Of a DNA stretch of 57,800 bases, positions 5,901-36,323 are shown piece by piece. The position numbers were made by a program, and so were the translations under genes. The DNA lies in assembly GCF_014644555.1 (NCBI RefSeq), contig NZ_BMKX01000014.1, forward strand, positions 1 to 57,800, in the 5' to 3' direction. The notes beneath the pieces are model-generated. The model was not told the DNA's origin, searched no databases, and saw nothing but the letters and a program-made list of their open reading frames with translations. The stretch's first letter is position 1; each line of letters opens with the position of its first letter. The DNA comes from Glutamicibacter ardleyensis. GTDB lineage: Bacteria; Actinomycetota; Actinomycetes; Actinomycetales; Micrococcaceae.

Positions 5901-7475
5901 CTACGAAGACAGCGAACTGATCAACATAACAATACCCGCAATGAGTGCGGCACCGCCCACGCTGAGTGCAGCGATCATAGCAATCAGCATGTTATTTGCA
6001 CGCCGAACGCCATGAGTTTGAGCATCTAGTGGCTGCAGCCCTTGAGCATTTACCGCCTCGATACGTGGCATTTCCACATTCGCTTGCGGCGCCGAAGCTT
6101 GAGCAGTCGATTGATCATTTGAGCCAGCTGTTTTTACTTGCGGCTTTGCCGCTGGTTTGACCGCTTGGCCAGTCGCAGGTTTAGGCGCAGGTACGGCTTG
6201 TGGCTTCGCCGCTGCCGGTGCTGGTTTAGCTGGTGAAACCGTTGAAGCTGGCTTGACCACCGGCTTAACAGTTTTCGCGGCAGGCTTTGGAGGCATCTTG
6301 CCAACGCTTGGCTTCTTGGATGCCTGCGAATTATGCTTCAGTTTGTCAGAGAGTTTCCCACTGGAATCAAGATCCAGCGAGACGCTTTCAGTCTTAGGAC
6401 CTTGCACGCCAGTCTTGGCGATACGGTCTTCGACTTCGCGAATATTGCCCAGGGCGCCGGTAAAAGGATCGGAGAGCGGCTGCTCTTTACCCTTCTTTGC
6501 GTTCTCAATACGTAGTCGTTCACGCTCTGCAGCACGACGAGAAATGATTGCAGCACGAGCCGCCATTTCCCGCTGATGAGCGAGTACTTCGAGATCAATC
6601 TCACCATCATCTTCGTTCAAAAGATTCGGATCGACTGGAGTCTTGGGATCGTGGGAGCGTCGAGCAGCTAAGGCTTCTTCGACACTCATCACCGTGGTTT
6701 CCGGTGAATCATCGGTTGACTTCGGTTTCGAAGCCGGCTTAGCGGCCTTGGGCTTCTGATTCGCCGAGTCAGGATTTTGGTCTGCCAGCGACTGCAAGCG
6801 TAGCTGGCGTCGGGTCAACGGTTTTGGCTCTTCAGCGGGTTCCACTGTGGGAACGTTTGTGGTGAGCGCACCGACTTCTTCTTCAAGGCGACGGCGTTCG
6901 CGTAGTGCTTCGCGGTCACGGGCACGACGCAGCGATGCGCGCTCCCCCATTGGCTTATCGGATGATTCGTCAGGCTTTGCAGCAGACTCAGTTTTTGGTG
7001 CTGACGCAGGCTTCACGGCGCTATCAGCCGGCTTTACAGCTGGCTTTACAGCTGGCTTGGGAGCTGAAGGGACCGTCTTAGATTCCGTTGCCTGCTTAGG
7101 GGCAGGACCGGCCTTTGGAGCAACGGCAGGCTTACCTGCTGGCTTCTTTGCTTCGGTGGATGACTTGTCCGGCACGCCGGATGAGATTTTACCAACCGGC
7201 GCTTTTACCGAGGCAGGCTTCGCTGGTGCTTTAGCCGGTGGTGTCTTTACTTCCGGTTTCGCCGAAGGCTTTGAATCAGATGGAGCGGCAGTTTTCGGGT
7301 CAGCTGGGCTGGCACCTGCCGAAGGCTTGACATCCTTCTTTTCAGTTGCCTGCTGATCGGCTAGCTTCTTGGCTTCCTGCTCGGCCTTACTACTGGCCAG
7401 CATGGCTTCCATTTCAGCGCGCCGCTTTTCACGCAATGCTCGCCGGCTTGAAGCCGGCTGCGTGTTATCGCTCAT
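5901..7475 (-). CDS. Ala/Pro/Lys-rich tail-anchored membrane protein
   Basis: About 524 residues when started at the ATG at 7475 (MSDNTQ), which has a GGGAG site 10 nt upstream; 13 further in-frame codons upstream lack support. I recognise no enzyme domain. The N-terminus is basic (RRALREKRRAE), followed by long low-complexity stretches of KPA, KPAVKPA and KTP type, with charged coiled-coil-prone segments between (LRRARDREALRERRRLEEE and AAERERLRIENAKK). A single hydrophobic helix (about 496-519) ends the chain, so the bulk should face the cytoplasm. The gene sits between nadD and rsfS. The basic repeats could bind nucleic acid or acidic polymers; this is a guess. Confidence 0.7.
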   Translation of the reverse strand: MSDNTQPASSRRALREKRRAEMEAMLASSKAEQEAKKLADQQATEKKDVKPSAGASPADPKTAAPSDSKPSAKPEVKTPPAKAPAKPASVKAPVGKISSGVPDKSSTEAKKPAGKPAVAPKAGPAPKQATESKTVPSAPKPAVKPAVKPADSAVKPASAPKTESAAKPDESSDKPMGERASLRRARDREALRERRRLEEEVGALTTNVPTVEPAEEPKPLTRRQLRLQSLADQNPDSANQKPKAAKPASKPKSTDDSPETTVMSVEEALAARRSHDPKTPVDPNLLNEDDGEIDLEVLAHQREMAARAAIISRRAAERERLRIENAKKGKEQPLSDPFTGALGNIREVEDRIAKTGVQGPKTESVSLDLDSSGKLSDKLKHNSQASKKPSVGKMPPKPAAKTVKPVVKPASTVSPAKPAPAAAKPQAVPAPKPATGQAVKPAAKPQVKTAGSNDQSTAQASAPQANVEMPRIEAVNAQGLQPLDAQTHGVRRANNMLIAMIAALSVGGAALIAGIVMLISSLSS

Positions 7476-30908: not shown

Positions 30909-33014
30909 ATGAAATCTCCAGTTCTCACATCGGTAGCGAATTCGCTCACCTCACGTCGCGGTGCACGCCTCTGGCTTCTCGGGGCGCTCGCTGTCATCCT
31001 TGCCGTTTTCGGTCTGCTCAGTTCCATTCCGGCAGCCGAACGCAGCACCAGTTCATTAGTCGCAGGCTCTGACTCAGCCACAGTGGCCAAGCTTCTCGAA
31101 CAAATCCCCGATTCCGGTAAAGAGTCAGCATTACTCGTTGCCGGACACCCCGATCAGCAACAGCTGAGCAACACAGACCTCGCAGGACTAAACAACCTGT
31201 CCAGCAAGCTCAGCAATGAACTAAATGTCGAGATTTCCAAGCCGCTAGTCAGCGAGGACGGCAAGCTTTCTTTGCTGACCGCCTCCTGGGACAGCGCAGG
31301 CACCGACGCTGACCGTGCGATGGTCACTGATCTGCGTGAGCAGATCAGCACCGATGCAAACGCCGGGATACTCATCGAGGTTTCCGGAGCACCAGCCTTT
31401 GGGCTGGATTTGTCGGCAACCTTCGCCGGAGCAGACTTCACCTTGTTGGCAGTGACCATCGGCATTGTGGCGGTACTGTTGATTCTCACCTACCGCTCGC
31501 CGATTCTCTGGCTAATTCCCTTGGCTGTCGTTGGGCTAGCAGATCGCAGTGCGAGCCTCATCGCTAACGCACTCAGCGAGCCTTTCAACCTACACTTTGA
31601 TTCCGGTGTGCTCAGCGTCCTGGTCTTCGGCGCCGGCACCAACTATGCACTATTGCTCATTTCCCGCTACCGTGATGAGCTACACCAGCACACCGATCAC
31701 CGAGCTGCTCTTGCTAGCGCCTGGCGCAACAGCTTTGAAGCGATTGTTTCCTCAAACTTGACCGTAGTCTTGGCGCTGGCCACGATGGCCCTGGCCGTTA
31801 TGGAGGACACCCGTGGCTTGGGTATTGTCTGCGCTGTAGGTCTACTGATCGCTGCCGGGTTCAACTTGTTCGTACTGACCCCAGTGATGGCACTGTGTGG
31901 CCGAAGAGTTTTCTGGCCGCTAGTTCCCCGCCCGGATCATGAAACTGCTAAACGTTCCATCTGGGGTAAAGCCGCAGCGGCGGTCATCAAGCGTCCGGTA
32001 GTCAACCTGAGCGCGCTGGTACTCATTCTTGGTATCTTGGCATCCGCGCTAGGTGCTACCAGTGTGGGACTACGCCAAACCGAACAGTTCCGTACGGCCA
32101 CCGAATCGACTTCGGCGACCCAACGGCTGGCCGAGCACTTCCCCGTCGGAGAGACCGCGCCCATCACCGTCCTTGCTTCCCCTGGTACCGGCGAAGCGGT
32201 CACTACCGCGGCTAAAGCTGTCCACGGAGTAGAACGCGCGACACAATTGCCAGCACTGCCAGACAGCGGATCTGACCGCATCATGATAATCGGCAACAGC
32301 GAATCAGGTTCTCCGGAAAGCTTCGAACTGATCAAGTCACTGCGAACCGTGTTCGAGCAGATTCCCGGCGCTGAGGCCCTCGTTGGCGGAATCATTGCCG
32401 AAGCCTACGACTCGCACCAAAGCCACCTGCGTGACTTCCTGGTCATTGCGCCACTGATCTTGCTGGTCTGCCTCATCATGTTGTGGATTGTCACCGGAAA
32501 GTTCCGCACCGCCTTACTGCTCTCGTTGACGAACTTGCTCAGTGCCGCCGCCGCGGTGGGCTTGGGATCCCTAATCGGATCCATGGTTTTTGAAACCTCT
32601 GCTCTGGACGTTCAGGTTCCGCTACTTGCCTTCGTCTTCCTCGTCGCCCTCGGCGTCGACTACACGATCTTCCTGACACAGAGAGTCAAACAAGATGCCC
32701 TTCGCATGCCTCTGGCGGATGCAATCATCAATGCCACCAGCCGGACTGGAACGGTCATCACCAGCGCAGGCGTGGTCTTGGCAGGAGTGTTTGCGGCTTT
32801 GTCCAGTCTGCCGCTGATGGTCTTGGGGCTGCTTGGTCTGATCGTTGGTCTCGGAGTACTTATGGACACGTTCGTCGTACGCACCTTGCTACTACCGGCG
32901 TTGTTCATCTTGTTGGGCCGCACAAAATCTCCGGTCTTCGGATACCGCGGCAACAGCAACACCAAAGAAAATTCTTCAAACACCCAACTCATTGAAAGTG
33001 AAACTCATGCGTAA
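30909..33014 (+). CDS. MMPL family transporter
   Basis: About 701 residues from the ATG at 30909 (MKSPVLTSV). RND-superfamily MMPL/YdfJ-type proteins export lipids, siderophores or drugs. The expected double arrangement is present: one N-terminal helix, an outside loop (about 40-180), five helices, then a sixth and second outside loop (about 340-510) and five more helices. Conserved segments are VLVFGAGTNYALLLISRYRDEL in the first half and FVFLVALGVDYTIFLTQRVK in the second, carrying the proton-relay acidic and Tyr residues. It overlaps the DUF2871 gene by 8 bp and lies about 100 bp after the two-component genes. Confidence 0.9.
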   Translation: MKSPVLTSVANSLTSRRGARLWLLGALAVILAVFGLLSSIPAAERSTSSLVAGSDSATVAKLLEQIPDSGKESALLVAGHPDQQQLSNTDLAGLNNLSSKLSNELNVEISKPLVSEDGKLSLLTASWDSAGTDADRAMVTDLREQISTDANAGILIEVSGAPAFGLDLSATFAGADFTLLAVTIGIVAVLLILTYRSPILWLIPLAVVGLADRSASLIANALSEPFNLHFDSGVLSVLVFGAGTNYALLLISRYRDELHQHTDHRAALASAWRNSFEAIVSSNLTVVLALATMALAVMEDTRGLGIVCAVGLLIAAGFNLFVLTPVMALCGRRVFWPLVPRPDHETAKRSIWGKAAAAVIKRPVVNLSALVLILGILASALGATSVGLRQTEQFRTATESTSATQRLAEHFPVGETAPITVLASPGTGEAVTTAAKAVHGVERATQLPALPDSGSDRIMIIGNSESGSPESFELIKSLRTVFEQIPGAEALVGGIIAEAYDSHQSHLRDFLVIAPLILLVCLIMLWIVTGKFRTALLLSLTNLLSAAAAVGLGSLIGSMVFETSALDVQVPLLAFVFLVALGVDYTIFLTQRVKQDALRMPLADAIINATSRTGTVITSAGVVLAGVFAALSSLPLMVLGLLGLIVGLGVLMDTFVVRTLLLPALFILLGRTKSPVFGYRGNSNTKENSSNTQLIESETHA

Positions 33015-33450
33015 GCTCATCAACATCGCCTTTGCCTACATGCTCGTAGGCGTCGCCTCCGGACTGTTCTTCCGCGAATTCACCAAAATGAACGATTTCC
33101 CCGAAGGTGGTTGGACCCAGCTTTCGGTAGTCCATACACACCTGCTGGTCCTTGGTTTCGTCGTCACCTTGCTGGTGTTACTGCTGGAGAAGGCATTCAA
33201 CATTAGCTCCCACCGCAAGCTCTACGCATGGTTCATGGGCACGTACCATGCCGGTGTCATCATCACCGCGGGAATGCAGCTGACCCACGGAATGCTCACG
33301 GTGCTGGACATTGAATCCTCTGCCATGATCTCCGGAATCGCAGGTCTTGGCCACATGGCGTTGACCGCTGGAATGATCTTGCTGTTCATCATGTTGCGTC
33401 GCAGCGTCGGAAGCACAAAACAGACTCCGCAGGAAGCCGTAGCAAGCTAA
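33007..33450 (+). CDS. DUF2871 family membrane protein
   Basis: A 147-residue protein with four hydrophobic helices. The DUF2871 pattern is clear: LINIAFAYMLVGVASGLFFREFTK, then TQLSVVHTHLLVLGFVVTLLVLLLEK and ISGIAGLGHMALTAGMILLF. The histidines in VVHTHLL and GLGHMA and the heme-protein-like layout hint at a metal or heme site, but no function is established. The ATG lies within the MMPL gene end (8-bp overlap), so its translation is coupled to the exporter. Confidence 0.82.
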   Translation: MRKLINIAFAYMLVGVASGLFFREFTKMNDFPEGGWTQLSVVHTHLLVLGFVVTLLVLLLEKAFNISSHRKLYAWFMGTYHAGVIITAGMQLTHGMLTVLDIESSAMISGIAGLGHMALTAGMILLFIMLRRSVGSTKQTPQEAVAS

Positions 33451-33471
33451 CCTCACGACAAGGTTCTACAG

Positions 33472-33512
33472 CTCAGGGTGGCTCAGACATTATTAGTCTG
33501 AGCCACCCTGAG
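33472..33512 (+). terminator. Long hairpin after the MMPL-DUF2871 genes
   Basis: A perfect 17-bp stem (33472-33488 with 33496-33512) with loop ATTATTA, 21 bp after the DUF2871 stop. No T-tract follows on either side, but its position and strength suggest transcription ends or the mRNA 3-prime end is protected here. Confidence 0.65.
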
Positions 33513-33589
33513 CATATTAATCCGAAAATACCTTCATACGAACTATAACTTTCTAGAACGTCAGGTTCTAAGGTACTAGGGTTCGATTA

Positions 33590-34060
33590 TTAGTTAGACG
33601 TTGAGTCAGGAAGCACAATTTCTACGCCGCCAAGTTGTGTTCCACCGAGGCATCGAAGGAAGTCATCTTCCGTCATTACTTCGATATTTTGCCCTTTTTC
33701 TTGAAGGTCAAAGGCTTTACGCGCCTTTCCAGTGAGATCCGAACCTGGTCGCAAAACGGAGGGGTCGATGTCACCGAAGACCAAAACATTAGTGCGCTTG
33801 GTCGTATTGTTCTCCGGGACCGCACCGACTCTCGCGCACTCCTGCCGTGCGACGTCTCGAGACATTGATTGGAGTGCACCGGTAAAGACGACCACACGTC
33901 CGTACAAATAACCGTCGGGATCCGCATCGGTGTTGGTCTGAACCTCGATGATTGATTTGGAATTTGACTGCCGGCGCGCTGTGCCTCCCTGATAAATTCC
34001 CGGGGCCATATATCCGAAACGTACACCAACAGTGTCGGCAAGCTCTTGAAGATCTGACAC
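33590..34060 (-). pseudogene. BRCT-domain part of a frameshifted exonuclease gene
   Basis: A 156-codon frame containing a BRCT domain (YGRVVVFTGALQSMSRDVARQECARVGA, then KRTNVLVFGD). It is the displaced C-terminal part of the exonuclease at 33676-34593. Its first possible codon is a GTG at 34060 without a ribosome-binding site. Removing one copy of the 29-bp duplication at 34061-34118 joins the two parts in frame (KLAEQHA then VSDLQELADTVGV). In the intact family the BRCT domain follows the nuclease and likely directs it to DNA-repair partners. As it stands this part is probably not made. Confidence 0.75.
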
Positions 34061-34593
34061 TGCATGTTGCTCGGCCAGCTTGCTAACAATGCATGTTGCT
34101 CGGCCAGCTTGCTAACAATCTGCACGACAGCTCGAGCATCCGCGAGTGCATCATGGTGGTTCTCCAACGAAAAACCAAGAGACTCCACGACAAAGGGGAG
34201 GCGATAAGAAGGCAGCTCCATGGCTTTTCGGGCAGTCACTAGTGTGCACAGAAAGTTGAATTCTGGGCTTTCGATACCATCAACGGTGCAAGCGTAGCGG
34301 ATGACGCCAGTATCGAAGGCAGCATTATGGGCAACGAGAATGTCATTCCCAACGAAATCAACAATGAGCGGCAGCACGTCTTTCCAGCGTGGGGCATCGG
34401 CGACCATGTCGGCTGTAATGCCGTGAATCGTGGTATTCCATGCATCGAAGGAGTCCACACCTTCTGGTGGACGGATCAAATAGTGACGCTCCTCCACAAT
34501 CTGGCCATCTCGAACCCGGACAAGCCCCACTGAACATGGAGATCCCCTATACGAATTTGCCGTTTCAAAATCAATCGCAGTAAAGTCCAACAT
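33676..34593 (-). CDS. DnaQ-type 3-prime-5-prime exonuclease, frameshifted
   Basis: The frame encodes a DEDDh exonuclease in its first ~165 residues: D8 and E10 in FTAIDFETAN, ILVAHNAAFD, and the final HHDALADA with catalytic histidine and aspartate. Such proteins resemble the proofreading subunit epsilon. After VSKLAEQHA the reading frame shifts because of a 29-bp tandem duplication (34061-34118), and the remaining ~135 codons encode a sequence unrelated to any domain. The ATG at 34593 has GAGG 6 nt upstream; a TTG four codons earlier is the alternative. The nuclease domain itself is complete and could be active without its BRCT partner. Confidence 0.75.
   Translation of the reverse strand: MLDFTAIDFETANSYRGSPCSVGLVRVRDGQIVEERHYLIRPPEGVDSFDAWNTTIHGITADMVADAPRWKDVLPLIVDFVGNDILVAHNAAFDTGVIRYACTVDGIESPEFNFLCTLVTARKAMELPSYRLPFVVESLGFSLENHHDALADARAVVQIVSKLAEQHALLASWPSNMQCQIFKSLPTLLVYVSDIWPREFIREAQRAGSQIPNQSSRFRPTPMRIPTVICTDVWSSLPVHSNQCLETSHGRSARESVRSRRTIRPSALMFWSSVTSTPPFCDQVRISLERRVKPLTFKKKGKISK
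34061..34118. repeat. Perfect 29-bp tandem duplication
   Basis: Bases 34061-34089 are repeated exactly at 34090-34118. The unit is not a multiple of three and lies inside the exonuclease-BRCT gene, so the second copy shifts the frame. A single copy restores one long frame. Confidence 0.95.
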
Positions 34594-34776
34594 CCATTGC
34601 CTCAACTCTCAGCTCAAATACGATCCTTTAAGCCATTCTCTACCATTGCCACGACAAGTTGGGTTCTACCTCCCGAAGCGAAAGTTACATGAAGCAGGAC
34701 AACTGTTGAAAGTTTCAAATATGGCAATATAAAGGTCTCCTCAGCGACCCGGATATGTTCTTCCTGGTGGCAAATT

Positions 34777-34833
34777 AGAACATTATGGGCGGTGCTCCTC
34801 AGCTATTACTGAGGGACACCGCCCATAATGTTC
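34777..34833. terminator. Long hairpin after the FprA gene
   Basis: Two 26-bp arms (34777-34802 and 34808-34833) match at 24 positions around a 5-nt loop, 18 bp beyond the stop of the FprA-like gene. No clear T-tract follows on the minus strand, but it is the only candidate terminator for the long sulfur operon. Confidence 0.65.
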
Positions 34834-34850
34834 TGAGCCTGGGGTAGAAC

Positions 34851-36305
34851 TTACAGGCTCTTAGCTAATTTTTTTGCTCGTGCAAACTCCAGCATTTCTT
34901 CGCGCTCAACTAGCTTGATGCGGTCACGGGTGATCTCACCGAAGCGGGTCGACACGGTACCGGCTTCGGCACCCAGAGCCTTTTCTTGCTCGTCCAGGCT
35001 CATCCAGCCATCCCAGTCGGCGTAGTCCACGCCACGGGACTCCAGCAGCTCTTCGATGCTCTGGTTCGAGGACGGAACCGGCAGGTTCGCCAAGTCTTCA
35101 AGCAGGTGGTTGATGGTCTCCAAGGCGTCACCCTTGGTGTGGCCAATTAGTCCGATAGGGCCACGCTTGATCCAACCGGTCGCGTACAAACCATCGATGT
35201 GGGTGCCTTCAGCGTTCAAGACTCGGCCTTCAACGTTTGGCAAGACACCGCGGTTTCCGTCGTATTCGATGTTGTCTACGGCAGAACCGAAGTAGCCAAC
35301 TGCACGGTATACGGCCTGTACTGGATACTCGGTAAATTCACCGGTGCCCTTCACATTTCCGGTGCCGTCTAGTTCGTTGCGTTCAAGCTTCAGACCGGTG
35401 ACCTTGCCGTCTTCACCGAGCACCTCAACCGGGGTCTGCAGGAAGTGCAGATGCAGTCGACGTGAAGCACTTGCGGTTTCCTCGGTCTCTTCCTGTTCAA
35501 TCAACCAGTTGGTCAGGGTCGAGACCATGGTCTTCGTTTGGTTGCTGGTGCGGATTGCTTCTTCCGAACCTTCGTCGAAGTCAAAGTCCTCTTCGTACAA
35601 GACGATGTCTACATCTTTGGAATGCGATAGTTCGCGAAGCTCCAGCGGGGTGAACTTCACCTGTGCGGGGCCACGGCGGCCGAAGATATGTACATCGGTG
35701 ACCGCGGAGCCGTTCAGCTGCTCATATACGTGAGCTGGAATTTCGGTCTCTAGCAGCTGGTCAGCATGTTTGGAGAGAATACGAGCGACGTCCAAAGCTA
35801 CGTTGCCATTACCGATCACTGCTACTTCAGTGGCGGAAAGGTCCCAATCCTTCGCGGCATCCGGATGCGCGTCGTACCAAGATACAAAGTCTGCGCCACC
35901 GTGAGAGCCGGTAAGTTCAATGCCTGGGATGTTCAGGTCGGCGTCTTTTTGGGCACCTGTCGCGATAATGACCGCGTCATAGCGCTCGTGTAATTCGTCA
36001 AGGGTGATGTCCCGGCCCAGTCCAACGTTTCCGTAGAAGTTGATCCAGTCGTTGTTCAGCACCTTATGCAGGGCATTGATAATGCCCTTAATGCGTGGGT
36101 GGTCCGGGGATACGCCGTAACGGATCAGGCCGAACGGGGTAGGTAGCTCATCGAAGAGATCTACCTTCAGCGATAGTTCGCCAGAAGAAACCGGCTCGCT
36201 CTTATTGAGCATGTCCGCGGCGTAGATACCTGCGGGACCGGCACCGACAATGGCAACGCGCAGGGCGCGGGAGGTCAAATGTTCAGGTACGTGAACTTCA
36301 CTCAT
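34851..36305 (-). CDS. fprA: FprA-like ferredoxin/adrenodoxin--NADP+ reductase
   Basis: About 484 residues. It has the FAD-binding VAIVGAGPAGIYAADML (18-34), the family segment LPTPFGLIRYGVSPDHPRIK, the NADPH site VAVIGNGNVALDVARIL, and the late GLYATGWIKRGPIGLIGHTKGDA. This is the adrenodoxin-reductase-like FprA form that moves electrons between NADPH and ferredoxin. It is the last gene of the sulfur cluster, 18 bp after cobA, which suggests it reduces the ferredoxin needed by the sulfite reductase at 42678; that role is inferred. TTG one codon earlier is a possible start. Confidence 0.9.
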   Translation of the reverse strand: MSEVHVPEHLTSRALRVAIVGAGPAGIYAADMLNKSEPVSSGELSLKVDLFDELPTPFGLIRYGVSPDHPRIKGIINALHKVLNNDWINFYGNVGLGRDITLDELHERYDAVIIATGAQKDADLNIPGIELTGSHGGADFVSWYDAHPDAAKDWDLSATEVAVIGNGNVALDVARILSKHADQLLETEIPAHVYEQLNGSAVTDVHIFGRRGPAQVKFTPLELRELSHSKDVDIVLYEEDFDFDEGSEEAIRTSNQTKTMVSTLTNWLIEQEETEETASASRRLHLHFLQTPVEVLGEDGKVTGLKLERNELDGTGNVKGTGEFTEYPVQAVYRAVGYFGSAVDNIEYDGNRGVLPNVEGRVLNAEGTHIDGLYATGWIKRGPIGLIGHTKGDALETINHLLEDLANLPVPSSNQSIEELLESRGVDYADWDGWMSLDEQEKALGAEAGTVSTRFGEITRDRIKLVEREEMLEFARAKKLAKSL

Positions 36306-36323
36306 CAAACAACATCTACTTTC

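Follow-up and report, generated by a model that had tools for sequence, protein, structure and literature searches.

The locus and its two reading frames

The window analysed here, contig C14 in its entirety (57,800 bases), belongs to a 3.94-Mb genome assembled in 28 contigs. It carries a gene in two pieces, flanked by two conserved genes that converge on it: a DUF2871 membrane protein gene (32845..33450, plus strand, longest open reading frame) and a pyridine nucleotide-disulphide oxidoreductase gene (34851..36308, minus strand). In G012, the nearest sibling compared, the flanking genes encode proteins of 98 and 94% identity, and DNA identity in the flanks is 92.5% as far as position 33407 and 94.3% from 34851 onwards. 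The G012 locus gave no blastn match between these two positions at E 1e-3. The variable segment that holds the gene (33408..34850) has a G+C content of 50.3%, compared to 55.0% for the window.

Long, terminator-like inverted repeats, seen by eye and not returned by the consensus scan, follow the DUF2871 gene (33471..33513) and the oxidoreductase gene (34778..34833). A promoter and terminator scan of 33400-34900 gave one promoter-like site (shuffle mean 1.2) and two terminator-like sites (shuffle mean 1.6), and since these counts lie near the shuffle means, it shows nothing beyond chance. The gap between the two conserved genes (33451-34850 in the window) holds a distant DEDDh exonuclease match in seven of the 16 genus loci fetched (L191, L192, L197, L198, L203, L204 and, weakly at E 0.010, L200). 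All seven are oriented opposite to the window gene, and the two that were scanned (L191 and L192) also have a BRCT domain. An Rfam search of the whole window returned four tRNAs only. Two tRNA-Pro genes that share the anticodon tgg lie 154 bases apart near the contig end (56461-56536 and 56691-56766), and at 7025-7058 a listed open frame contains 2.8 copies of a 12-bp unit, a length divisible by 3.

The first part of the gene (34090..34593, minus strand; 168 codons from an ATG at 34593) is a DEDDh exonuclease. It matches Pfam RNase_T (PF00929) at E 3.5e-21, with 76.9 bits against a curated cut-off of 24, and is 74-75% identical in amino acids to its counterparts in G234 and G010. The motifs DFE, HNAAFD and HHDALAD can be seen by eye and may hold the catalytic residues D, E, D, H and D of the family. 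The second part (33590..34060, minus strand; 156 codons) lies in another frame; it shares 65% amino-acid identity with the unbroken G234 protein over residues 169-320 of the latter. The two pieces correspond to successive stretches (positions 1-163 and 167-305) of NF004844 (PRK06195, "DNA polymerase III subunit epsilon"), a model of exonuclease-BRCT proteins, with scores of 157.1 and 73.1 bits that each fall below the 373-bit cut-off set for the whole protein.

The original prediction read the gene as a DEDDh exonuclease followed by a BRCT domain. The Pfam match bears out the exonuclease. A Pfam search of the second piece, however, gave no BRCT match, and the label is an indirect one that draws on its relatives (12 of 18 aligned rows match Pfam BRCT), on matches to two LigA models (E 5.6e-7 and 1.7e-6) and on its profile, which finds replication factor C subunit 1 (RFC1) as well as the C-terminal part of DNA ligases (LigA) of solved structure (best 1.2e-8).

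The two parts meet at an exact tandem duplication of 29 bases. In gene direction, an exact-match search places the 3' copy at 34061..34089 and the 5' copy at 34090..34118. These are the only two exact matches of the unit in the 3.94-Mb genome, and 100 shuffles of the window gave a mean of 0.00 matches at up to 3 mismatches. The repeat run is one base longer (2.03 copies), the extra base being, by eye, a T at 34119. Codons of the exonuclease frame start at coordinates divisible by 3 (34605, 34593), and the BRCT frame has a codon start at 34060, with remainder 1. Since 29 leaves a remainder of 2, one unit accounts exactly for the frame shift, by arithmetic on the coordinates. The duplication is thus upheld, and the arithmetic agrees with the prediction that one copy fewer would give a single continuous frame.

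As the sequence stands, the nuclease frame (33676..34593, minus strand) runs for 305 amino acids from the ATG at 34593, or 309 from a TTG at 34605. Its roughly 137 codons beyond the junction are the BRCT region read out of frame, much as predicted. The BRCT part had also been described as lacking a start, which does not hold in full: a GTG at 34060, exactly at the junction, is its first possible start, with no clear ribosome-binding site upstream by eye. All five relatives, read in the equivalent frame, run into a stop (codon 6, 13, 18, 36 or 64), so the tail is not a conserved product. A programmed -1 ribosomal frameshift could in principle yield the fused protein despite the duplication, as frame arithmetic has a shift in the overlap leading from the nuclease frame into the BRCT frame. 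However, no X XXY YYZ heptamer occurs in the nuclease frame between 33990 and 34130, the sole heptamer there (CCCGGGA at 34004) being in the other frame, and we regard such recoding as extremely improbable.

Spacing and damage in the close relatives

Five close relatives were compared: the copies of G234, G010 and Aeromicrobium sp. Leaf350, and those of two Rhodococcus plasmids. Aligned separately with the intact protein of G234, the two window parts span its residues 1-167 and 169-320. The offsets between the parts fit a single unit at the junction in all five, the second-part match of G010 being short and weak (49 residues, E 5e-5). A second repeat copy was sought at this site in the same five relatives and found in none. 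The two-copy frame is not the normal state of the gene among them, and the original prediction stands on this point. Relative to its intact homologues the window gene is disrupted in frame, which on sequence grounds makes it a pseudogene or loss-of-function allele.

In its own frame the BRCT part is free of stops, and third codon positions differ most in 10 of 10 comparisons. No second lesion is thus seen, and the break looks recent. The lack of any other lesion would also be expected if the true gene were single-copy and the duplication an error of sequencing or assembly, a reading taken up below.

Damage is not confined to the window copy. Of seven copies found in the clade, four are intact in frame (G234, Aeromicrobium and the two plasmids) and three are damaged (the window, G010 and G196). 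G234 and both Rhodococcus plasmid copies are extended at the C terminus by a cysteine-rich part of roughly 200 residues. The G010 copy is broken by a TAA after the nuclease; its BRCT match stops at residue 90 of 156, and past that point lies a gene for a Mutator-family transposase. This break is independent of that in the window. In G196, a BRCT fragment holds a TAG, and nothing on its 4,373-base contig matches the nuclease part.

In both genus members that carry the window type (the window genome, G000, and G010), the break falls after an uninterrupted exonuclease frame. Pure decay does not require this, although two cases are few. One could propose that a nuclease without BRCT domain is a useful form, selected for and reached independently in these two genomes. 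Against this, there are only the two cases, and the damaged G196 copy shows the opposite arrangement. We hold selection for the truncated form to be very unlikely. Exonuclease activity of the window product may remain.

An extra gene of scattered distribution

The window genome also encodes an intact core exonuclease-BRCT paralogue of 335 amino acids. All 18 genus genomes, including its own, have counterparts of this core paralogue, and the window type occurs in two of the 18. G012 has a single exonuclease match, which is of the core type, and lacks the window-type gene. Among 395 family genomes, the nuclease part was matched at E 1e-62 or better in three (G000 itself, G010 and G234), a cut-off of our choosing at which more distant copies could be missed; a further G234 match passing it is core-like by tree. 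In a scan of named genomes, Aeromicrobium sp. Leaf350 (72%) stood above all others (62% or less) among the best 80 loci listed. Plasmid records matched in 26 cases, two of them, both from Rhodococcus, at more than 60% identity. A phage origin was considered and rejected: the 58 phage records that match the nuclease frame are all below 60% identity, and among the matches listed (best 20 of 58) the alignment ends at query residue 182 or earlier.

In a tree of 55 exonuclease domains, the window copy falls in a clade of six with support of 98/97. This clade spans Micrococcaceae, Aeromicrobium and Rhodococcus plasmids, its other members being G010, G234, the Aeromicrobium copy and the two plasmid genes. 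Such a placement points to horizontal transfer of the window gene. The core exonuclease of the window genome groups with Arthrobacter and other Micrococcaceae rows, and the host is probably a member of that family. Within the clade, the window copy groups with the Aeromicrobium and plasmid genes and not with G010, at 92/89, which is below the starred level. The G010 copy sits at a different genome location, and acquisition was possibly separate in the two genus members. From its distribution, the gene is probably a dispensable, accessory extra.

The surroundings of the intact relatives offer a lead on what such a gene might do. All four (L205, L206, L169 and L087) have defence-type genes no more than about 4 kb away: a gene annotated as a restriction endonuclease (Mrr_cat, 1e-4) with an OLD/AriA-like protein, Lamassu LmuA and LmuB, AbiD with a transposase, and a type II cytosine methyltransferase. 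PADLOC matched five of 17 scanned neighbours of the four intact copies (eight from plasmid loci, five from G234 and four from Aeromicrobium), compared to one of ten neighbours of core-type genes from three genomes (five models, best 1.9e-16); the one G010 neighbour scanned had no match. Because the scanned neighbours were chosen by us, the defence link is a lead and no more. The plasmid exonuclease-BRCT proteins themselves also match PADLOC models (PDC-S48, DEDDh), but the best stretch of these matches is confined to the nuclease domain. On both Rhodococcus plasmids, a 185-amino-acid protein with a weak match to DUF6218, below the curated cut-off, is encoded after the exonuclease-BRCT gene (L205:7707-8264 and L206:7705-8262).

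From these neighbourhoods one may conceive of the window-type clade as a mobile, defence-associated nuclease, whose stray chromosomal copies would repeatedly shed the BRCT part, here by a reversible duplication, and so uncouple or silence a costly nuclease. We consider this proposal, taken as a whole, very doubtful.

Origin of the duplication and fate of the gene

One repeat copy begins with ACACT and ends with ACAAT, a match by eye at four of five positions, and this short end homology is consistent with slippage. Secondary structure of the repeat strand was tried as a cause of slippage and rejected, since the strand folds no better than its shuffles (z 0.20). Exact tandem duplications with units of at least 10 bases numbered two in a 409,247-base sample of this genome, and one other occurs in the window. 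The 29-bp unit is the only one in the window of at least 20 bases with a length that is not a multiple of 3, and the sample held none of that kind. Across 80 named loci (937,439 bases), three of five exact tandem units of at least 20 bases (the units of 59, 40 and 22) were not multiples of 3, counted irrespective of genic location. An excess of tandem duplications in this genome was not seen in the sample, and duplications of this sort are uncommon, not extraordinary.

These counts bear on whether the duplication is real. The assembly is a draft in 28 contigs, which leaves some room for a sequencing or assembly error. However, few other exact tandem duplications turned up in the bases sampled from this genome. 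Errors do not typically take the form of an exact 29-base expansion, short tandem arrays collapse more often than they expand, and the 58-bp array is shorter than usual reads. Its shortness relative to reads and the rarity of exact tandem duplications here lead us to think an error quite unlikely.

It was also suggested that the duplication acts as a reversible switch, in which slippage would add or remove the unit at an appreciable rate and the population would mix nuclease with and without its BRCT domain. Frame-shifting insertions that revert are known. In Escherichia coli K-12 phnE, the 8 bp concerned are a repeat unit. PMC6469041 describes how this 8-bp insertion shifts the frame and silences the gene, and how its loss by slippage restores it. 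The window gene resembles phnE in being disrupted by a short frame-shifting insertion, but the phnE unit is smaller and its reversion under selection was demonstrated experimentally (PMC6469041), whereas the present case is known from sequence. In the pneumococcal type 3 locus, cap8E and tts, spontaneous sequence duplications inactivate genes (Waite 2001, 2003, as cited in PMC4022640 and PMC4243769). There too, the duplication lies inside the reading frame, but the outcome is described as reversible phase variation (PMC4022640; PMC4243769), whereas here we have one static assembly. Reversion is expected at most at about 1e-5 for insertions of at most nine bases, according to PMC4022640, a figure that does not extend to a 29-base unit.

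Against these precedents, any one slippage event would leave the unit in two copies. Neither the site in the five relatives, where the repeat is missing, nor the folding of the strand speaks for a switch, and with an intact paralogue elsewhere in the genome nothing in the sequence asks for one. The duplication could in principle be lost again, as in the known insertions, but we think a switch unlikely. Were both forms present in the population, this would be a simple domain-removing switch.

It is thus reasonable to favour, at a probability of about three in four, an ordinary gene break, read from a single draft assembly, in which a recent slippage duplication cost a dispensable extra gene, acquired horizontally, its BRCT part. 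Under this reading, an additional exonuclease-BRCT gene would have been acquired horizontally and placed between the two convergent conserved genes. A recent tandem duplication of 29 bp, most likely the result of slippage in replication between the imperfect end homologies ACACT and ACAAT, would then have shifted the frame, and the protein now made would be a nuclease that lacks the BRCT domain and ends in a meaningless tail. With the core paralogue still in place and the extra gene dispensable, loss of the BRCT domain would be tolerated. Among the options of the original prediction, a fresh loss of function, placed in a dispensable extra copy, is the best fit to the evidence as a whole.

A limited look at the literature for this gene type found no work joining exonuclease, BRCT and Glutamicibacter. 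The locus is a caution for automated annotation, which would call a nuclease of about 305 amino acids with a false tail. It would also cleanly capture a redundant, acquired nuclease gene in early decay, apparently set off by a single slippage event.
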